This document shows, piece by piece, positions 5,577 through 63,885 of a DNA stretch of 64,000 nucleotides. The notes beneath the pieces were generated by a model that was not told the origin of the DNA, made no database searches, and worked only from the letters and a program-made list of their open reading frames with translations. Position 1 is the first letter of the stretch, and every line of letters begins with the position of its first letter. The DNA comes from Kangiella aquimarina DSM 16071 (GTDB taxonomy: Bacteria > Pseudomonadota > Gammaproteobacteria > Enterobacterales > Kangiellaceae), in contig NZ_KB893651.1 in NCBI RefSeq assembly GCF_000374105.1, positions 87,838-151,837 of the forward strand, in the 5' to 3' direction. Both the position numbers and the translations under genes were made by a program.

Positions 5577-6887
<1,311 letters not shown>

Positions 6888-21084: not shown

Positions 21085-21396
21085 ATGGATGCCATTTATT
21101 TACTGATACCTCTGACTTTAATTTTCCTGGCAATCGCCGTTGGTATTTTCTTCTGGGCGGTTAATTCCGATCAGTATTCTGATCTGGATAAAGAGGCGAG
21201 TCGCATTCTATTCGAAGAGAAAAGGTTTGAAGAGAAATGTTTCGAAGAGAAAGGGTTTGAAGAGAAAGGGTTTGAAGAGAAAGGTTTCGAAGACGAAGAG
21301 TTTGAAGAGATAGGCTCCAAGGAGAAATTCTCTGAAAACAACACAGCAGATCAGTCTTCAAAAGAGAATAAAGAGCAATCAGGATCGAAGCAATGA
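21085..21396 (+). CDS. ccoS: cbb3-type oxidase assembly protein CcoS with a repeat-extended tail
   Basis: One membrane helix (residues 3-26, LLIPLTLIFLAIAVGIFFWAV) followed by NSDQYSDLDKEASRILFEE, the CcoS signature. CcoS is normally about 45-70 aa; this one is 103 aa because a 15-bp unit coding for a FEEKG-like pentapeptide is repeated seven times (21211-21315). CcoS is required for haem/copper insertion into CcoN. Its end overlaps the next gene by 4 bp. Confidence 0.92.
   Translation: MDAIYLLIPLTLIFLAIAVGIFFWAVNSDQYSDLDKEASRILFEEKRFEEKCFEEKGFEEKGFEEKGFEDEEFEEIGSKEKFSENNTADQSSKENKEQSGSKQ
21211..21315 (+). repeat. Seven tandem 15-bp repeats inside ccoS
   Basis: Units start at 21211, 21226, 21241, 21256, 21271, 21286 and 21301 and follow TTYGAAGAGAAAGGN. 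They code for FEEKR, FEEKC, FEEKG three times, FEDEE and FEEIG. The middle units are nearly identical in DNA, which points to recent slippage; the outer ones have diverged. Confidence 0.95.
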
Positions 21397-22121
21397 TTAG
21401 CGATCAGGTTTTAACCGCACTGGTATCAGCTTTTGCCATGGGCTTTCTGGGATCGACGCATTGCATCGGTATGTGCGGTGGCTTAACAGTTGCGCTCAAT
21501 ACCGGTACTGCCAAGGAAAAGTCATTGCGCCTGTCTTTCACTTACCAGATATTCCGAGTACTCAGTTACGGTATCCTTGGAGCTTTAGTTGGTGGCTTTG
21601 GCTATCTTTTTAGCAAGTGGACCAACTTTCCGGTCTTGATTGTTCTTGGCGGCATCATGCTAATCATGATGGGATTCTATCTCTTAAGCTGGCAAAACTT
21701 ACTGATTTATTTTGAAAGTATCGGCCGTAAGGTGTGGAAGAAAGTCTCCCCAGTGCAAAGCCGTTTCTTACCCATCAAAAAGTTTCACCAGGCAGCTGTG
21801 GTCGGGTTGTTATGGGGCTTATTACCGTGTGGCTTAGTCTATAGCGCGCTGGCAATGGCCAGTACTTCGGGAACAGCAATCGGCGGATTTGCCAGTATGG
21901 TTGCCTTTGGACTTGGGACTTTACCAGCCATGTTCGCGGTAGGTGTGTTCAGTAACAAGCTGGTAAATTTCTTTCGCAACCCAAAGGTTCGCGCTGTATT
22001 CGGTTTGCTGTTCATACTCTGGGGAAGCTTTTATATTTATCAAGCAGTTACTAAGTTTTCGAGCGGTCAGGCTGGACACCAGCATCATCAGATGCAAACA
22101 GAAATGAGTCATGCCCACTAG
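21393..22121 (+). CDS. Sulfite exporter TauE/SafE family-like membrane protein (cco-linked)
   Basis: Membrane protein of 242 aa with about six helices. FLGSTHCIGMCGGL near the N terminus and GLLWGLLPCGLVYSALAMA in the middle are the paired Cys-containing motifs of the cco-linked TauE/SafE-like family, which resembles DsbD-like transporters. A role in copper or redox handling for cbb3 assembly is likely from context only. The C-terminal HQHHQMQTEMSHAH is His- and Met-rich and could bind metal. Last gene of the cco operon; overlaps ccoS by 4 bp. Confidence 0.85.
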   Translation: MISDQVLTALVSAFAMGFLGSTHCIGMCGGLTVALNTGTAKEKSLRLSFTYQIFRVLSYGILGALVGGFGYLFSKWTNFPVLIVLGGIMLIMMGFYLLSWQNLLIYFESIGRKVWKKVSPVQSRFLPIKKFHQAAVVGLLWGLLPCGLVYSALAMASTSGTAIGGFASMVAFGLGTLPAMFAVGVFSNKLVNFFRNPKVRAVFGLLFILWGSFYIYQAVTKFSSGQAGHQHHQMQTEMSHAH

Positions 22122-22151
22122 AGTTTATGACTAAATAATTTTAAAAAAAGG

Positions 22152-22180
22152 TTTACACCCCACAAGTATCGTTGTAGATT
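22152..22180 (+). promoter_or_regulatory. Predicted sigma-70 promoter of the arginine cluster
   Basis: TTTACA at 22152-22157 (5 of 6 to consensus), a 17-bp spacer, and TAGATT at 22175-22180 (4 of 6). Transcription would start near 22187, about 30 bases before the leader peptide. This is the only promoter-like sequence found between the cco operon and argF'. Confidence 0.6.
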
Positions 22181-22217
22181 TGCCTGCACTGAACAGCACT
22201 TTTAGTCAATTTTATAC

Positions 22218-22298
22218 ATGAAACATACTTTAGTTTTAACAGCACAATTACGACGTCGCAGCTTTCGTATTCGGAAGGCTGGGGTCTATAGCGCGTAA
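22218..22298 (+). CDS. Arginine-rich leader peptide of the arg cluster
   Basis: A 26-codon frame from ATG 22218 to TAA 22296-22298. Five of the eight residues 12-19 are Arg: R12, R13, R14 (CGA CGT CGC at 22251-22259), R17 (CGT) and R19 (CGG). This is the pattern of a regulatory leader peptide for an amino-acid operon. The ribosome binding site is weak. It overlaps the first two strands of the attenuator described at 22260-22347. Its likely job is to sense charged tRNA-Arg by ribosome stalling. Confidence 0.78.
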   Translation: MKHTLVLTAQLRRRSFRIRKAGVYSA

Positions 22299-22347
22299 AA
22301 AAGTATGTAACTAGATTTTGAAACCCAGCCAACGGCTGGGTTTTTTT
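22260..22347 (+). promoter_or_regulatory. Transcription attenuator of the arginine cluster
   Basis: Mutually exclusive pairings are visible. Strand 1 (22260-22266) pairs with strand 2 (22274-22280) by seven bp with one G-T. Strand 2, extended as GGCTGGG (22277-22283), can instead pair with CCCAGCC of strand 3 (22324-22330). Strand 3 can pair with GGCTGGG of strand 4 (22334-22340), which is followed by seven T. A ribosome stalled on the Arg codons would block strand 1 and favour the 2:3 antiterminator; a ribosome that reaches the stop at 22298 covers strand 2 and allows the terminator. This is the trp/his logic with arginine codons. Confidence 0.78.
22322..22347 (+). terminator. Rho-independent terminator in the arg leader
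   Basis: AACCCAGCC, loop AAC, GGCTGGGTT, continuing into a T run (22341-22347). A strong stem 48 bases before argF'. It also sits 200 bases after the cco operon, but its complementarity to the upstream GGCTGGG and the Arg-rich leader make it the terminator of an attenuator. Confidence 0.9.
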
Positions 22348-22394
22348 ATGCCTGCATAAAAACCTGCCGCTGGCTCTGAGCGAAGGTATTTATT

Positions 22395-23402
22395 ATGCAG
22401 CACTTTCTCACAACAGAGACCTGGTCGAAACCGAATCTGCAAAAGATTCTGGACTTTGCCAAAGATCTGAAACAATCACCGATCCAACCCTTATTAAAAA
22501 ACAAAAGCATAGCACTGTTGTTTTTTAATCCTTCACTAAGAACGCGTACCAGCTTTGAAATTGGAATTGAACAGCTCGGAGGCCATGCAGTTGTATTGCA
22601 GCCGGGAAAAGATGCCTGGCCAATAGAGTTTGAGTTAGGTTCAGTAATGGACGGCGAAGCAGAAGAACATGTTAAAGAAGTTGCTCAGGTGCTTTCCAGT
22701 TATTGTGACCTTATTGCCATTAGAGCTTTTCCTAAGTTTGTGGATTGGCAAAAAGACAAGCTGGATACGTTATTAAATAGCTTCGCACAATATGCAAGCG
22801 TGCCAGTTATAAACATGGAAACAATCACTCATCCCTGTCAGGAACTGGCACACATTATGACCCTGCAGGAAAAACTTGGCGACCTGCAAGGAAAGAAATA
22901 TCTTCTGACCTGGACCTATCATCCTAAACCTTTGAATACAGCAGTGGCTAATTCCGCACTGATGATCGCCAGCAAATTCGGCATGGATGTCACACTACTT
23001 TGCCCAACCGAAGAGTATGTGCTTGATGAGCACTATATGCAGTCGGCCCGGAGTAACTGCAGTCAGAATAATCAGAACTTAACGGTAACGCACAATATAG
23101 AAGAGGCCTATAGCGGTGCGGAAATTGTTTACGCCAAAAGCTGGGGGGCACTGCCATATTTTGGGCAGTGGGAAAAAGAAAAACTCATCCGAGATCAGTA
23201 CAAACACTTTATTGTCGATGAAAAAAAGATGGCCATGACCAATCAAGGTCTCTTCAGTCACTGCTTACCATTAAGACGTAATGTTAAGGCCACGGATGCT
23301 GTTATGGACTCAGAGTATTGCGTTGCCATTCAGGAAGCTGAGAACCGTCTTCATGTTCAAAAATCATTAATGAATTTTTTAGCCAATCAACATTCCTCTT
23401 GA
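22395..23402 (+). CDS. argF': N-acetylornithine carbamoyltransferase (ArgF')
   Basis: Carbamoylates N-acetylornithine to N-acetylcitrulline, in place of the usual ornithine carbamoyltransferase. The 335-aa sequence follows the Xanthomonas enzyme closely: FFNPSLRTRTSFE for carbamoyl phosphate, LQPGKDAWPIEF with Trp75, MDGEAEEH (Glu at the site that separates N-acetyl- from N-succinylornithine enzymes), HPCQELAH, TWTYHPKPLNTAV and HCLPLRRNVKATD. AAGG lies eight bases before the ATG. First structural gene after the attenuator. Confidence 0.95.
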   Translation: MQHFLTTETWSKPNLQKILDFAKDLKQSPIQPLLKNKSIALLFFNPSLRTRTSFEIGIEQLGGHAVVLQPGKDAWPIEFELGSVMDGEAEEHVKEVAQVLSSYCDLIAIRAFPKFVDWQKDKLDTLLNSFAQYASVPVINMETITHPCQELAHIMTLQEKLGDLQGKKYLLTWTYHPKPLNTAVANSALMIASKFGMDVTLLCPTEEYVLDEHYMQSARSNCSQNNQNLTVTHNIEEAYSGAEIVYAKSWGALPYFGQWEKEKLIRDQYKHFIVDEKKMAMTNQGLFSHCLPLRRNVKATDAVMDSEYCVAIQEAENRLHVQKSLMNFLANQHSS

Positions 23403-23425: not shown

Positions 23426-24637
23426 ATGAGTCAAAAGAAAGTCGTTCTAGCATTTTCAGGTGGTTTAGATACCAGTTTTTGTGTGCCATATTTGATGGAT
23501 AAAGGATATGAAGTTCATACCTTGTTCGTAAACACAGGTGGTGTCGGTGATGATAAATGTCTTCACATTAAAGAACGTGCATTGCAATTAGGTGCTAAGC
23601 AGCACTGGCAAGTTGATGCGCAACAGATGTTATGGAATGAAATTGTAACACCGTTGGTTTGGGGGAATTCTAAATATCAGGGTCAGTACCCTCTACTCTG
23701 TGCGGATCGGTATCTTATTGTGAGAGAGTCGATCAAGCTTTGTCAGCAGTTGGGTACCAATGCGGTTGCGCATGGATGCACTGGCATGGGTAATGACCAA
23801 GTTAGATTTGATATTTCTATTAAAGCATTAGGTGACTATAAGATTTTGTCACCAATTAGGGATATTCAGCAGCAGGTAAAGGACGTAAGACAATATGAAA
23901 TCGAGTATCTAATGCAGAAGGGTTTTGAAACCAGCTTGGAGCATAAAAAATACAGCATTAATGAAAATCTGCTTGGTGTAACCATTTCCGGTTCAGAAAT
24001 TGATCAATGGCAGGAACCACAAGATGATACCTATTTTTTAACCAATCATTATCAAGACTTTCCAAAAGAACCGTTGAAGCTCACCATTGAATTTAAGCAA
24101 GGTGAAGCGGTCGCGATTAATGGTGAGTTTAAAACTGGCGTTGAGATCATGCAATCTCTTAATCAAAAGCTTGGAGAGTATGGTGTGGGGAGAGGCATCT
24201 ATACCGGTGACACCGTCATTGGTCTAAAAGGACGTATTGTGTTTGAGGCTCCTGCGCTGTTTGGGTTACTCAAAGCACACCAGGCCTTAGAAGAAGTTGT
24301 ACTGACGCAGCAGCAAAACCAGTTCAAACCAGTGGTTTCCGACAAATGGACAGAGCTGGTTTACAAAGGGTTTTATTTTGATCCTTTATGTCAGGGACTT
24401 CATCAGTTTCTGGCCTCAACTCAGCAGTATGTTAATGGCACGGTGGAGCTTTTAGTTTATTCAGGCCAGCTGCAGATCATAGCGATTAATAGTCCCTCGC
24501 TGCTGGTTAGTAAAGAAGCCAGTTACGCTCAGACTGCCAGTTGGGGAATTGAGCAAGCGGAAGGCTTCATCAAACTATTTAGTCATAGTACTGCCACCTG
24601 GGCACAGGTTAATCTTCAAGGTGGCAGCAATGAATAA
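23426..24637 (+). CDS. argG: Argininosuccinate synthase
   Basis: Joins citrulline and aspartate with ATP to argininosuccinate. The N-type ATP pyrophosphatase motif AFSGGLDTS is at residues 9-17; HGCTGMGNDQVRFD and the KYSINENLLGVTISGSEID region are in family order. Length of 403 aa is standard. It lies 23 bp after argF' and overlaps the next gene by 8 bp. In this pathway the citrulline it uses is released from N-acetylcitrulline by the argE' product. Confidence 0.96.
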   Translation: MSQKKVVLAFSGGLDTSFCVPYLMDKGYEVHTLFVNTGGVGDDKCLHIKERALQLGAKQHWQVDAQQMLWNEIVTPLVWGNSKYQGQYPLLCADRYLIVRESIKLCQQLGTNAVAHGCTGMGNDQVRFDISIKALGDYKILSPIRDIQQQVKDVRQYEIEYLMQKGFETSLEHKKYSINENLLGVTISGSEIDQWQEPQDDTYFLTNHYQDFPKEPLKLTIEFKQGEAVAINGEFKTGVEIMQSLNQKLGEYGVGRGIYTGDTVIGLKGRIVFEAPALFGLLKAHQALEEVVLTQQQNQFKPVVSDKWTELVYKGFYFDPLCQGLHQFLASTQQYVNGTVELLVYSGQLQIIAINSPSLLVSKEASYAQTASWGIEQAEGFIKLFSHSTATWAQVNLQGGSNE

Positions 24638-25769
24638 TTTCACAAACAAAAAAAATGTTAACTCGGATTTATTGCTGGAAAAAACTCTACTGCATCTTAA
24701 GGCATTAGTTGGATTTGATACCACCAACCCACCCAGGAAGATTGCCGAGTCAGGTATTGTTGAATATTTGTGTCAGCAGTTGAAAGATGCAAATGTTGAA
24801 GTTATGAACTATGGAGAGGGCTCCATTAATGTTTATGCAGTGAAAGGCAAGCCTAAATACCTATTTAACTTTCATATTGATACGGTTCCAGTTGCACTGG
24901 GTTGGGATAGCGATCCCTTTACACTAATCGTTAAACTGGGAAAAGCTTATGGCTTAGGATGTTGTGATACCAAAGGCGCGGCTGCCTGCTTTTTGGCGTG
25001 TGTTGAACAGGGATTGGATGATTATGCGGTTTTATTTTCTTCTGATGAAGAATATGGCAACAGCCTCTGTGTTAAATCTTTCTTACAGCAAACACATGAC
25101 TATGATGGCGTCATCGTTGCAGAACCCACTCAATGCAAAGCGGTCTTGGCGCACCGCGGAGTAGCAACAGCAGAAATAACTTTTAAGGCAACAAGTGGTC
25201 ACAGTTCAGAGGCAAGAGCGTTAAAAGATAATGCTATTCACCAAGCTGCGAGCTGGATGACACAGGCACTTGAGTGGGCAACAGCTGAGTTGCAGTGCAG
25301 CTTCGAAAATCTACAAGGCGTTTGTCTGAATCTAGGTAAGATCGAAGGTGGAATTAAACCTAACATTATTGCATCTGACGTCACTTTGCAGATGGGAATT
25401 AGGCCATTGCCTGGTGATGTGCCCGAGCAGAAACTACAAGAGATGGTTAGCTCAATTGAAATTAGTCAGCCGGTTACCGTAACCCCAAAGTTTATAGCAC
25501 CTTCATTTCCTTCCACAAAGTCTAAGGAGCACTCTGAACATCCTAAAACTGATAATGAGGAACTAGCAAAAACATTAGGCTTAGAAGTCAGCCCTGCTGT
25601 TAACTTCTGGACCGAAGCTGCGCTTTTCTCAGAAGCTGGATATCAGGCGATTGTTTATGGTCCTGGCAATATTGATAAAGCTCATACTGCTAATGAGTGG
25701 GTGGCACTCAATGATCTAGAAACAGTTGTTACCAATTACTGGAGGATTCTTGGCAATGACAAATCATAA
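24630..25769 (+). CDS. argE': M20 deacetylase, predicted N-acetylcitrulline deacetylase (ArgE')
   Basis: Di-zinc amidohydrolase of 379 aa. Metal ligands and catalytic residues are visible: His82 and Asp84 (FHIDTVP), Asp113 (CCDTKG), catalytic Glu140 with Glu141 (SSDEEYG), and the late His in IDKAHTANEW. The start at ATG 24630 has AAGGTGG just upstream. By family it could be an acetylornithine deacetylase or DapE-like; the argF' partner implies N-acetylcitrulline as the substrate, as in xanthomonads. Overlaps argG and the next gene. Confidence 0.88.
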   Translation: MNNFTNKKNVNSDLLLEKTLLHLKALVGFDTTNPPRKIAESGIVEYLCQQLKDANVEVMNYGEGSINVYAVKGKPKYLFNFHIDTVPVALGWDSDPFTLIVKLGKAYGLGCCDTKGAAACFLACVEQGLDDYAVLFSSDEEYGNSLCVKSFLQQTHDYDGVIVAEPTQCKAVLAHRGVATAEITFKATSGHSSEARALKDNAIHQAASWMTQALEWATAELQCSFENLQGVCLNLGKIEGGIKPNIIASDVTLQMGIRPLPGDVPEQKLQEMVSSIEISQPVTVTPKFIAPSFPSTKSKEHSEHPKTDNEELAKTLGLEVSPAVNFWTEAALFSEAGYQAIVYGPGNIDKAHTANEWVALNDLETVVTNYWRILGNDKS

Positions 25770-27078
25770 AGTCAAAGAAACCATCATACGATTACTTAAT
25801 AATATGGGTAGCGAGAATGAAATCCGTAAATACCTGAAGCGGTTCTCCAGTAATGAAGGGATGAAATTTGCCATCATTAAAGTTGGTGGAGCCATTTTAA
25901 AAGATGACATAGATAACCTGGTGTCATCCTTATCGTTTCTACAGCAGGTCGGATTAACGCCAATTGTGGTGCATGGTGCAGGACCACAGCTCAATGAACA
26001 GCTGGAACAGGAAAGAATAGAGGCTCAATTTATTGAAGGTAAACGCGTAACCAATTCAGAAGTGCTTAAGGTGGCGCGCAAGGTATTCATTTCTGAGAAT
26101 CATAATCTGGTCAACGCCTTAAAGAATACCGGGGTCGATGCCGCATCATTCTATTCAGGTGTTTTCGAGTGTGCTCTTGAAAGCGAAAGCCTAGGTTTGG
26201 TTGGCTCAATTCAATCAGTACATGCTCATGATTTGATTGAGAGTGTTAGAAATGGAGCAATTCCTGTAGTAAGTCCTTTAGGAGAAACAGAGCAAGGCCA
26301 AATAGTAAACATCAATGCAGATACGGCGACGCTTGCCTTAGCAAAAACCATCGAACCCTATAAGGTCGTTTTTTTAACTTCGACAGGCGGCATTTTGGAT
26401 GCTGATGAAAAATTGATTCCAGCTATCAGTTTACAAAATGACTACCACTACCTTATGCAACAGAGCTGGTTGTATTCAGGAATGAAATTAAAGCTGCAAC
26501 AAATTTATCAACTCCTAAACCATGTATCTAGTGCTACCTCGGTTTCAATCACCAAGCCCAGCCTGGTAGCAAAAGAGTTGTTTACCGACCGTGGTTCAGG
26601 AACCTTGGTCAACAAAGGTGAAAAGATTTATCAGTTTGATAACTGGCAAGAACTTTCAAAGGTTAAATTGACCAACTTAATTGAGTCATCTTTTGGCTAT
26701 CATTTGCAACCAAACTATTTTCAAAAAACACAGCTACACAAAGCTTATGTTACTGAATGCTATAGAGCAGCAACCATAGTCACCAATGATTATGCCATCC
26801 CATATCTCGATAAATTTGTGGTGGAAGACTCAGCAAAAGGGGAGGGATTAGGTACCGCAGTCTGGAATAGGATGCTACTCGACAATCCACAGTTATTCTG
26901 GCGAGCTTCTGCTAATAATCCGATCAATAAATTTTACTTCTCTATGGCTGATGGTTTTATCCGTGGCAAGCTGTGGAATGTTTTCTGGCGTGGCATCAAT
27001 GAACACTCATTGATTCATTCCTGTGTGCAACAGGCTATGAGCAGACCTCGCACTGTTATTTCAGGTGAATTGTCATGA
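25756..27078 (+). CDS. argB: Bifunctional N-acetylglutamate kinase / N-acetylglutamate synthase (ArgB-ArgA fusion)
   Basis: Fusion of 440 aa that carries out the first two steps of arginine synthesis. Residues about 30-290 are an amino-acid kinase domain (KVGGAILKDD, VVHGAGPQLN, NINADTATLALA); residues about 295-440 are a GNAT acetyltransferase of the vertebrate-like NAGS type (FVVEDSAKGEGLGTAVW, FYFSMADGFIRG). The start at 25756 has GGAGG ten bases upstream; it overlaps argE' by 14 bp and argC by 4 bp. The same fusion is known from Xanthomonas. Confidence 0.93.
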   Translation: MTNHKVKETIIRLLNNMGSENEIRKYLKRFSSNEGMKFAIIKVGGAILKDDIDNLVSSLSFLQQVGLTPIVVHGAGPQLNEQLEQERIEAQFIEGKRVTNSEVLKVARKVFISENHNLVNALKNTGVDAASFYSGVFECALESESLGLVGSIQSVHAHDLIESVRNGAIPVVSPLGETEQGQIVNINADTATLALAKTIEPYKVVFLTSTGGILDADEKLIPAISLQNDYHYLMQQSWLYSGMKLKLQQIYQLLNHVSSATSVSITKPSLVAKELFTDRGSGTLVNKGEKIYQFDNWQELSKVKLTNLIESSFGYHLQPNYFQKTQLHKAYVTECYRAATIVTNDYAIPYLDKFVVEDSAKGEGLGTAVWNRMLLDNPQLFWRASANNPINKFYFSMADGFIRGKLWNVFWRGINEHSLIHSCVQQAMSRPRTVISGELS

Positions 27079-28025
27079 GCACCGTAAAGAAAACATCAAT
27101 TAGCGTTGCCATAGTTGGCGCCAGAGGCTATGTCGGTGATGAGTTGATCAAACTATTGAATCAGCATCCTGTTTTTGAATTAGAGTTAGCAGTGTCACGT
27201 AGTAAGCAAGGACAGCTTATCGATGGTTACAGCAAAAAAGAGCTGTATTATCAGGACGCGACACCAGAGCAAGTTGGCGAAGGCGAATATGACCTGATTT
27301 TCCTGGCACTACCCAATGGTCTGGCTCAACCCTATGTAAATGAAATTGATAAAACTTCCAGCCTGTCGGTGATTGTTGATTTAAGTGCCGATTACCGATT
27401 TGACAAGAATTGGCATTATAGCTTACCTGAGCTGAATCAAGTAACTGCACAAACTCGGATCAGTAACCCTGGTTGTTACGCTACCGCCATGCAGCTGTCA
27501 CTAGCACCTCTGACTCCAGTTCTGGATGGTGCGGTGCATTGCTTTGGCGTGTCTGGATATAGTGGCGCGGGAACCAATCCGAGTGATAAGAATAATCCTG
27601 TACTGCTAGACAATAACCTTATTCCTTATCAATTGTCAGAGCATTTGCACGAAAAAGAAGTGAGTCTTCATTTGAGTACAGAAGTGAAGTTCACGCCTCA
27701 CGTCGCCAGTTTCTTTCGAGGCATTTCCATGACGACTCATATAAGCTTACAGCAAACCATGTCGCTTAATCTTGTGATCGACCTGTTCCAAAAATTCTAT
27801 CAAAAGCATCCATTGATTGAAGTGCGCGAGACTATTCCTCTAGTTAAAGACATTCAGGGCAAGGTCGGAGCAATTATTGGTGGATTTAAGCTTGATCGAA
27901 GCGGTAAGCATTTAGTTCTGTGCTGTGTTATCGACAACCTGCTTAAAGGCGCTGCGGTGCAGGCACTGCAAAATGCAAATCGTGCTTTTAATCTTAATTC
28001 TTTAGAGGCTATTAATTATGACTAA
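27075..28025 (+). CDS. argC: N-acetyl-gamma-glutamyl-phosphate reductase
   Basis: NADPH-dependent reduction of acetylglutamyl phosphate to the semialdehyde. The dinucleotide motif VGARGYVGDEL is near residue 14, the catalytic Cys134 stands in SNPGCYATAM, and FGVSGYSGAG and HVASFFRGISMT follow. Length of 316 aa is at the short end, like the xanthomonad type. Overlaps argB by 4 bp and argH by 8 bp. Confidence 0.95.
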   Translation: MSTVKKTSISVAIVGARGYVGDELIKLLNQHPVFELELAVSRSKQGQLIDGYSKKELYYQDATPEQVGEGEYDLIFLALPNGLAQPYVNEIDKTSSLSVIVDLSADYRFDKNWHYSLPELNQVTAQTRISNPGCYATAMQLSLAPLTPVLDGAVHCFGVSGYSGAGTNPSDKNNPVLLDNNLIPYQLSEHLHEKEVSLHLSTEVKFTPHVASFFRGISMTTHISLQQTMSLNLVIDLFQKFYQKHPLIEVRETIPLVKDIQGKVGAIIGGFKLDRSGKHLVLCCVIDNLLKGAAVQALQNANRAFNLNSLEAINYD

Positions 28026-29322
28026 GCCAAAACAATTGTGGGCAACCAAAAATTCTGAAAAGAACGAGTTGCAACAGAGAGTCGAACAATTCATGTCCGG
28101 CCAAGATGTAATGCTTGATCACTATCTTTTTGAGTTTGATATTCAGGCCAGTAAAGTTCATGCACAAGGATTGCAACGTATTGATATTTTATCCCAGACT
28201 GAGCTTGATCAAATAACAGCAAGTCTGGATGAATTATTATCGCAATTTAAAAGTGGTAAGTTTGTTCTGGATCAATCATTCGAAGATGGGCATTCGGCGA
28301 TCGAATACTTTTTGACTGAACAGCTGGGTGACCTTGGCAAGAAAATTCACACAGGTCGTAGCCGAAATGATCAGGTTATGGTGGCTACTCGGTTGTATTG
28401 TAAGCAGGCTTTAGTGGAGCTTAAACAAAGCTGCATCGACATTGCAAAAGCATGTTTAACTCAGGCAGAGCAGAATAAAAATAGCGTCATGCCGGGATAC
28501 ACTCATATTCAAAGGGCAGTGGTATCCAGCTGGGGATTATGGTTTGCCAGTTTTGCAGAGTCGTTTTGTGATAATGCTCTTTTGGTTCAACAGACCCTGG
28601 ACTGGATTGATGCTAATCCATTAGGTACTGCCGCAGGCTATGGTGTTAATTTGCAGCTTGATAGAGATTACACCACTGAAGCTCTCGGTTTTGGCAGGAT
28701 GCAAATCAATCCGATGTACGTGCAAAATAGCCGTGGTAAATTTGAGTTGCAGATTTTAATGGCTTTTAAGCAGGCAATGTTGGATATCAGGCGTTTGGCC
28801 TGGGATTTGAGCCTGTTTACCAGCGCTGAATTTAATCTGGTGAAATTACCCGATTTGTTTAGTACCGGCTCATCGATTATGCCGAACAAGCGTAATCCAG
28901 ACACAGTAGAGTTGATGCGAGCGCAATATGCCAAGTTGGTCGGCGTCTTTAATGAAATTGAATCATTGTTATCATTGCCCAGTGGCTATCAGCGCGATCT
29001 TCAGAATACAAAGGCACCATTAATCAATGGCATAACGGAAGCTTTGTCATGTCTGGCATTAGTGCCTGAGCTGCTGTCAGGTATTGATATTTGTCATAGG
29101 AATTGTGAAAAAGCCATTGAGCCGGCAATGTTTGCTACGGATAAGGCGGTTGAGTTGGCTCGGGAGGGAGTTCCTTTCAGGCAAGCTTATCAGCAATTAA
29201 AAGACAATTATCAAGATCTTGCCAGTAGATCTCCGAACCAGTCCCTGGAGGAACGCGTTTCACCTGGTGCCTGTGCTAACTTAAAGTTATCTGAAATGGC
29301 TAATCGATTAGAAAATGTGTGA
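28018..29322 (+). CDS. argH: Argininosuccinate lyase
   Basis: Cleaves argininosuccinate to arginine and fumarate. Family motifs: LTEQLGDLGKKIHTGRSRNDQV, MPGYTHIQRAVVSSWG with the catalytic His, and GSSIMPNKRNPD with the catalytic Ser loop. Length of 434 aa is normal; no fused NAGS domain is present. Last gene of the arginine cluster. argD, needed for the aminotransferase step, is not in the window. Confidence 0.95.
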   Translation: MTKPKQLWATKNSEKNELQQRVEQFMSGQDVMLDHYLFEFDIQASKVHAQGLQRIDILSQTELDQITASLDELLSQFKSGKFVLDQSFEDGHSAIEYFLTEQLGDLGKKIHTGRSRNDQVMVATRLYCKQALVELKQSCIDIAKACLTQAEQNKNSVMPGYTHIQRAVVSSWGLWFASFAESFCDNALLVQQTLDWIDANPLGTAAGYGVNLQLDRDYTTEALGFGRMQINPMYVQNSRGKFELQILMAFKQAMLDIRRLAWDLSLFTSAEFNLVKLPDLFSTGSSIMPNKRNPDTVELMRAQYAKLVGVFNEIESLLSLPSGYQRDLQNTKAPLINGITEALSCLALVPELLSGIDICHRNCEKAIEPAMFATDKAVELAREGVPFRQAYQQLKDNYQDLASRSPNQSLEERVSPGACANLKLSEMANRLENV

Positions 29323-63446: not shown

Positions 63447-63885
63447 TTGCCTTATTTTATTCCATGCGTCATTCACCACCGGCACTTCCTACGGTCGCCT
63501 GCGAAGGAGGGTGACCAAAGTGAATGCCCTTGGGTAAATCCATGTGCTCCTTAATATCATTCCTTTAATTTCTGCTTTTCGCCCCTCGGCGAGTACCTTT
63601 TCTTTACTTGTCTAAAGAAAAGGTACCAAAAGAAAGGACACCCCATGATTGAGGTTTCGCATTGCGAAACTCCCTTCGTAAAAACCAAGCCATTTAACGC
63701 ACCGTAAAATACGTTCCATCCTTGGCCCGAATTTTACTATTCAAAACTTCCTGTTTTGAATTGCTATGGATTGGTTATTACTCAGCTCAATCAAAAGGGG
63801 GATTTGGGGTGCGAGGCTGAAAGTTTCTACCTTAGCTTATAGGATGGGTTAGCTTAAAAAGCGTAACCCATCAAACAAGGTTAGA
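63447..63885. other. Repeat-rich spacer after pldA
   Basis: A 439-bp gap with several perfect inverted repeats: GTACCTTTTCTTTA at 63593-63606 pairs with 63613-63626 (14 bp, loop CTTGTC); GTTTCGC/GCGAAAC at 63654-63670; GATGGGTTA at 63843-63851 pairs with 63864-63872. A GCGTCATTCACC repeat begins at about 63466. No ORF of interest. Confidence 0.7.

Follow-up and report, generated by a model that had tools for sequence, protein, structure and literature searches.

The question raised by the DNA upstream of argF' in Kangiella aquimarina DSM 16071 is how an arginine biosynthetic cluster is controlled there. Attenuation is the textbook mode of control of the his, trp, leu, ilv, thr and phe operons, while arginine is left to ArgR in gammaproteobacteria. 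We analyzed a window of 64,000 nucleotides of this genome (contig NZ_KB893651.1), in which the intergenic stretch ahead of argF' (starting at 22395), bounded upstream by the gene at 21393-22121, contains a complete set of attenuator parts. From the sequence and its conservation, we conclude that this element is very probably an arginine-specific, ribosome-mediated transcription attenuator, present in lineages devoid of ArgR.

Anatomy of the leader

All parts of the element lie on the forward strand. The leader open reading frame (ORF) at 22218..22298 has 26 codons, encodes the peptide MKHTLVLTAQLRRRSFRIRKAGVYSA followed by a stop, and has homologs among the leaders of related genomes. Translation agreed with the preliminary description of this locus in placing five Arg codons in it, at residues 12, 13, 14, 17, and 19. 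The first three form the tandem run CGA CGT CGC (22251..22259), and at least three consecutive Arg codons are present in the 25 aligned leaders of the family; the fourth (CGT, 22266..22268) and the fifth (CGG, 22272..22274) were read directly from the sequence and its translation. Short leader ORFs with such clustered codons for the end product were found both in the window and in relatives.

Folding reproduced the three mutually exclusive pairings and the run of seven T where they had been described, with coordinates that were right to within one base, except that the first hairpin is one pair longer than announced. Strand 1 (22259..22266), which overlaps the 3' end of the tandem Arg run, pairs with 22274-22281 to form the 8-bp protector hairpin (1:2); a protector with strand 1 at the control codons was recovered in the window and in the Kangiellaceae that were scored. 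Strand 2 (22274..22283), supported by folding and alignment, pairs either with strand 1 or, through 22277-22283, with strand 3 (22324..22330). The latter, supported in the same way, is thus either part of the antiterminator (2:3) or the 5' arm of the terminator (3:4), two structures that exclude each other here and in relatives, apart from some exceptions in Xanthomonadales. The 2:3 helix formed in the folding once the 3' half of the terminator was omitted (-18.5 kcal/mol). The intrinsic terminator (22320..22347), located between the leader and the first gene and also seen in the alignment, consists of an 11-bp stem (22320-22330/22334-22344), a 3-nt loop, and T7 at 22341-22347. Its fold (-16 kcal/mol, z -5.15) was equaled by none of 200 shuffles, and the fold of the whole region 22187-22350 had a z of -3.43.

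This arrangement suggests the following mechanism. Transcription would start behind position 22180 and the leader peptide would be translated during RNA synthesis. With ample charged Arg-tRNA, the ribosome would cross the Arg codons (22251-22274) and reach the stop, leaving strand 2 covered or paired with strand 1, so that the 3:4 terminator would form and the RNA end near 22347. With scarce Arg-tRNA, the ribosome would halt on the Arg codons and cover strand 1; strand 2 would then pair with strand 3, the terminator would be blocked, and argF'GEBCH would be transcribed. In this scheme we infer that the ribosome stalls, that read-through depends on arginine, and that the whole cluster is controlled as a single transcript.

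Chance is a poor explanation for the association of leader and terminator. We searched with a script for ORFs of at most 65 codons having three Arg codons in five and ending at most 70 nt before a strong terminator. The argF' leader was its sole match in the real 64-kb window; 60 dinucleotide shuffles of the window, searched on both strands, yielded one match, and not one of 5000 shuffles of the DNA between the upstream gene and argF' (22122-22394) gave any. No Rfam family reached its gathering score at the leader site, where the best sub-threshold matches were Phe_leader (25.4 bits, gathering 55) and Leu_leader (23.1 bits, gathering 50). The Xoo5 family (RF02242) did not reach its gathering score anywhere in the window, and no T-box was matched in the window at gathering score, nor locally down to an E value of 10. 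Five leader peptides compared with NCBIfam and Pfam matched no family, SpeFL/DUF2618 included.

Downstream of the terminator, in 22348-22394 and in the equivalent region of 11 Kangiella relatives, the terminator tip GCCATCGG has a complement in a word resembling CCGATGGC. ATGGCA...TGCCAT is moreover able, in several genomes, to close over the argF' start codon. Such pairing 3' of the terminator is a possible second, translational layer.

Conservation and covariation in Kangiellaceae

ArgF' is encoded in 25 of the 40 Kangiellaceae genomes sampled, and the arg leader was present in all 25. It was read directly from the DNA in 23 of them, L004 and L027 being left out of this reading as their upstream region is cut by a contig end. 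In the other two (G012 and G025), it was located with the covariance model R1 and then confirmed in the DNA, about 430 nt upstream of argF' in G012 and on another contig in G025. Because 22 of the 25 leaders that R1 later found in the family had gone into the model, those 22 matches are obtained by construction, and the direct reading constitutes the independent evidence. No arg leader was detected with R1 in the 15 Kangiellaceae genomes without ArgF', and one was present in each of three further ArgF' genomes of the order. In the genome of the window itself, R1 gave 61 matches at E<=5, with the argF' leader at 77.2 bits and the next at 32.4; the three other matches that we read (L112, L113, and L115) adjoin gene 3' ends and have no Arg leader, so that we rejected them. 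We also rejected L023 as a case of an ArgF' genome without leader: none is found within 400 nt, the leader being located farther upstream beyond a repeat-rich insert.

The leader peptides diverge within the family (LRRRSFRIRKAG, QQRRRSRIMPAG, VIRRRRRTYWAGCDG, INRHDRRRREVACW), whereas the run of Arg codons, the word in strand 2, and the terminator are conserved. Spacing in 12 Kangiella leaders, counted from the first Arg codon, is 24-27 nt for the start of strand 2, 36-51 nt for the stop, and 62-80 nt for strand 3. We aligned 25 leaders (alignment A2, without L024, a near copy of L022). In this alignment 100% of the 225 terminator cells were paired, and both partners had been substituted in two of the nine pairs. 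For the antiterminator, 90% of the 200 cells were paired, and both partners had been substituted in three of the eight pairs. Slid controls reached at most 66% pairing for the terminator and 20-50% for the antiterminator. The antiterminator covariation score was reached by none of 500 shuffles; since the sequences are related, fractions of this kind are not probabilities. The Arg codons and both stems are therefore maintained, with covariation of 2:3 and 3:4, as the preliminary description had anticipated. It had also stated that it would be contradicted by relatives without an Arg-rich leader or without the 2:3 pairing; the leader was recovered in 25/25 genomes, and the antiterminator folded in all 22 family leaders examined with the 3' arm left out.

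Two side observations can be added. In G012 (L138), a repeat-rich insert of about 400 nt separates the attenuator from argF'. Among the 20 genomes sampled from the genus of the window, 7 have no ArgF' and may need external arginine.

A counterpart in Xanthomonadales

The preliminary description had called the cluster xanthomonad-type, and this label proved apt, as xanthomonads carry a counterpart leader in front of argF'. We scanned for ArgF' and obtained 80 named loci, among which 62 of Xanthomonadales type were chosen by the motif MTSR; the 18 others are titled otherwise (Kangiella, SAR86, planctomycetes, and others). In these 62 loci, the upstream ORF ends with A-R-M-A-x-G-M-T-S-R-A-R-R-P-x(3-6)-AG-stop. 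The segment M-T-S-R-A-R-R displays no amino-acid change over the 62 loci, with four codons used for Thr, three for Ala, and two for each of two Arg residues, next to the nearly invariant Ser codon TCG (60/62) and last Arg codon CGA (61/62). Because MTSRARR varies only synonymously, the data speak for a Xanthomonadales leader that is probably translated and conserved as a protein.

Strand 2 corresponds to the Ala-Gly-stop word, and its position relative to the stop is -6 in 56 of the 61 Xanthomonadales loci scored for this helix (L072, where our script detected no terminator, was left out). It tracks the terminator arm: the 52 loci that could be scored in this respect, out of 62, comprise 25 with GCTGGGT/CCCAGC, 22 with GCCGGGT/CCCGGC, three with a G-U pair, and two with a mismatch (10 were not scorable). 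The 18 other ArgF' loci include five Kangiellaceae with the Arg run, four SAR86 with a 14-codon leader (MNNYLTQERRVSAL followed by a stop) and a terminator, and one metagenome-assembled genome of Chromatiales with LRRRNL. No ArgF' relative was found in viral contigs.

On a larger scale, the MTSRARR-P pattern was found in 149 of 299 genomes of the Xanthomonadales order (that of G334), once in each, and the reversed control pattern in none; ArgF' directly followed the pattern in all 10 loci that were fetched.

In Xanthomonadales leaders such as that of L094, the third Arg codon, CGA (61/62), is followed by the Pro codon CCG (59/62), a codon pair that may be slow. In one SAR86 locus (L043, 5752-5833), a tRNA gene lies directly 5' of the short Arg leader, the transcription of which may start at the tRNA promoter.

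Identity of sRNA-Xoo5 with the xanthomonad leader

A leader RNA of this kind has already been shown to exist in Xanthomonas oryzae. The sRNA-Xoo5 of strain PXO99 is transcribed from the plus strand between PXO_00354 and PXO_00353, the latter named N-acetylornithine carbamoyltransferase in the same paper; it measures 124 nt by 5' RACE (rapid amplification of cDNA ends) and cloning, whereas Northern blots gave sizes of about 130 and 100 nt, the number of bands falling from two in early growth to one afterwards (PMC3039613). The corresponding Rfam model, RF02242, matches two of our Xanthomonadales loci (L094 and L097) at 5731-5854, i.e., from -270 to -147 relative to the argF' start. The leader ATG being at -268, the match begins 2 nt before it and extends past the stop over 124 positions. 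RF02242 reached its gathering score in 10 of 13 Xanthomonadales loci (L094, L097, and 8 of 11 further ones), each time in front of argF', and did not reach it in L036, L064, L053, and L105. On the basis of this mapping, made on Rfam matches in other Xanthomonadales loci, we identify sRNA-Xoo5 as the xanthomonad arg leader, an RNA that would hold the whole leader ORF and have its mapped 5' end 2 nt before the leader ATG. It was catalogued as an sRNA gene, its Rfam model stops before the terminator, and the accessible part of the paper mentions neither a leader peptide nor arginine sensing (PMC3039613).

Histidine leaders as a built-in control

At E<=1e-6, R1 recovered in the family only two sites beyond the arg leaders, in G023 and G029, both genomes without ArgF'. 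These sites are his leaders with His codons, encoding AQNHHHHHTNMMAG and a stop in front of hisG. At both sites the his leader (MIILKAQNHHHHHTNMMAG, then a stop) is followed by a second His-rich leader, ahead of hisG. The frame AQ, codons, AG-stop, terminator is common to the arg and his leaders, and the codons fit the operon in each case. This codon swap within one frame is what an attenuation model predicts.

The tandem His-rich ORFs upstream of hisG, each with its own terminator, form an apparent double his attenuator in two Kangiella-genus genomes without ArgF' (L136 and L137); no Rfam family was matched there at gathering score.

Distribution of ArgR

ArgR (PF01316) was not detected in the genome of the window, while Escherichia coli and eight other controls matched. 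It was present in 6 of the 40 Kangiellaceae genomes, none of which encodes ArgF'; a plain count gives 0.0013 for this split, with the caveat that genomes grouped by genus do not count as independent samples. In the 299 Xanthomonadales-order genomes, ArgR was found in eight, all from one family without the MTSRARR-P pattern, and there was no overlap with the 149 genomes having the pattern. None of the 12 genomes reached from the named ArgF' loci encodes ArgR. No leader was recognized at three distant carbamoyltransferases (L123-L125, 37-39% identity) from ArgR-bearing genomes. The absence of ArgR is compatible with its replacement by an attenuator without proving it.

Evaluation of the alternatives

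Several observations weigh against the attenuator. In the window, no Shine-Dalgarno sequence could be clearly recognized upstream of the leader ATG. The 2:3 helix is short, with one end pair failing in 14/25 leaders of A2 and another in 4/25, and the number of changed antiterminator pairs was reached by 25 of 500 shuffles, that of pair types by 217. In Xanthomonadales, 23 of 61 helices taken singly were not better than shuffles at the 5% level, and L051 and L104 end without the AG-stop strand. Eight of the 80 ArgF' loci have no such leader within 450 nt upstream. The sRNA-Xoo5 clone stops about 30 nt ahead of the T run (-117 to -111), either the RNA or the clone having been trimmed. Finally, ArgR is uncommon in the class at large (35 of the 369 genomes sampled), so that its absence is no special mark and we did not retain it as strong evidence.

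In a rival view, the terminator would simply end the upstream gene or act as a fixed roadblock, and the Arg ORF would be present by chance; intrinsic terminators with ACCC..GGGT stems are indeed common in this genome. This hardly deserves credence, given that leader and terminator occur together beside argF' in 25/25 family genomes, that selection acts at the amino-acid level in Xanthomonadales, that strand 2 covaries with the terminator arm, and that none of the 5000 shuffles produced the combination. It is also very unlikely that the main role of the leader RNA is that of an sRNA acting in trans, as published for sRNA-Xoo5, with only a secondary link to argF'. X. oryzae does contain a stable RNA of 124 nt, the sizes of which vary with growth phase (PMC3039613), but its full length corresponds to the leader ORF and its flank, it precedes argF' in all ten loci matched by RF02242, and its codon pattern is that of a coding RNA. 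Both roles could coexist in the same RNA.

A more serious competitor is a nascent peptide read by the ribosome, i.e., an arrest peptide through which arginine, or its state, would be sensed in the tunnel in the manner of TnaC or SpeFL, and not merely the speed of translation at Arg codons. The near fixation of A-x-x-A-x-G-M-T-S-R-A-R-R in 62 Xanthomonadales loci, with varying third bases, pleads for it, since a plain attenuator would need the control codons only. However, these loci were chosen by the MTSR motif (though every xanthomonad-titled locus passed), Kangiellaceae share only the Arg run and the strand-2 AG with variable flanks, and the his leader of sister genomes keeps the frame with His codons. 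We consider this explanation improbable. Arginine-specific attenuation, our preferred reading, could be combined with it in a bolder scenario: an ancient arginine attenuation of the acetylornithine-carbamoyltransferase pathway, having replaced ArgR, would have been turned in Xanthomonadales into a nascent-peptide sensor, with ARMAxGMTSRARRP acting in the exit tunnel, a halt at the Arg codons tuned or triggered by arginine itself, and sRNA-Xoo5 as a by-product. This scenario is tentative and we would rather doubt it.

Comparison with known systems

The closest known relative of the element is the his operon leader (HisL type), with which it shares the order of parts, the tandem control codons over strand 1, and the exclusive 1:2, 2:3, and 3:4 pairings; the his leader of two sister genomes even has the frame AQ...AG-stop in common with it. 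The arg element differs in its Arg codons, its arginine operon, and its single attenuator, in contrast to the tandem pair in front of hisG in those genomes. The trp, leu, thr, phe, and ilv leaders have a similar mechanism but another amino acid, and Rfam scores were below gathering. In the speF leader of Salmonella (orf34/SpeFL), consecutive Arg codons of a short ORF also sense arginine, but SpeFL controls ornithine decarboxylase through Rho, release of the ribosome-binding site, and RNase G, without this kind of intrinsic terminator according to the accessible text (PMC6386406). The carA leader of Pseudomonas likewise has a premature terminator before an arginine-related gene; however, it is tied to pyrimidines and to an ArgR of the AraC kind, and no Arg-codon leader is reported for P. 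syringae in the accessible part of that study (PMC4997734). A comparative paper on Actinobacteria from 2005 describes, in its accessible part, RNA control of arginine elsewhere only through T-boxes (PMC1262725).

The open-licence literature that we searched contained no description of an attenuator of an arg biosynthetic operon. The novelty claimed in the preliminary description thus stands within that literature, except that part of the Xanthomonas RNA was already present in Rfam as an sRNA gene. What is new is the combination of arginine and its biosynthetic operon in ArgR-less lineages, with a xanthomonad form in which the peptide is conserved beyond the control codons. If the attenuation reading is true, arginine joins the amino acids under attenuation control, the control of arginine synthesis in ArgR-less lineages, xanthomonads included, is explained, and the orphan Rfam sRNA Xoo5 gains a function. 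The xanthomonad leader would also offer a test case for control codons and nascent chain acting together.

Promoter, arginine genes, and other features of the window

The sigma-70-like promoter TTTACA-17-TAGATT (22152..22180, forward strand) matches the consensus at 9 of 12 positions. The region contains fewer such 9/12 matches (12) than its shuffles do on average (23.4); since they are not enriched, the match carries no weight alone. The promoter proposed in the preliminary description therefore draws its support only from relatives, in which hexamers and spacing recur: TTTACA-17-TA(G/A/C)ATT is present in 9 of 12 Kangiella upstream regions.

Six arginine genes follow on the forward strand, each above the cut-off of its NCBIfam model: argF', encoding N-acetylornithine carbamoyltransferase (22395..23402, NF003384, 585 bits for a cut-off of 288); argG, argininosuccinate synthase (23426..24637, NF003385); argE, acetylornithine deacetylase (24630..25769, NF006439, with the ATG start taken from the ORF); argB, the long form of acetylglutamate kinase (25756..27078, NF003387); argC (27075..28025, TIGR01850); and argH (28018..29322, TIGR00838).

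The sole Rfam match of the window at gathering score was a TwoAYGGAY RNA (RF01731) at 63667-63792 on the reverse strand (48 bits).
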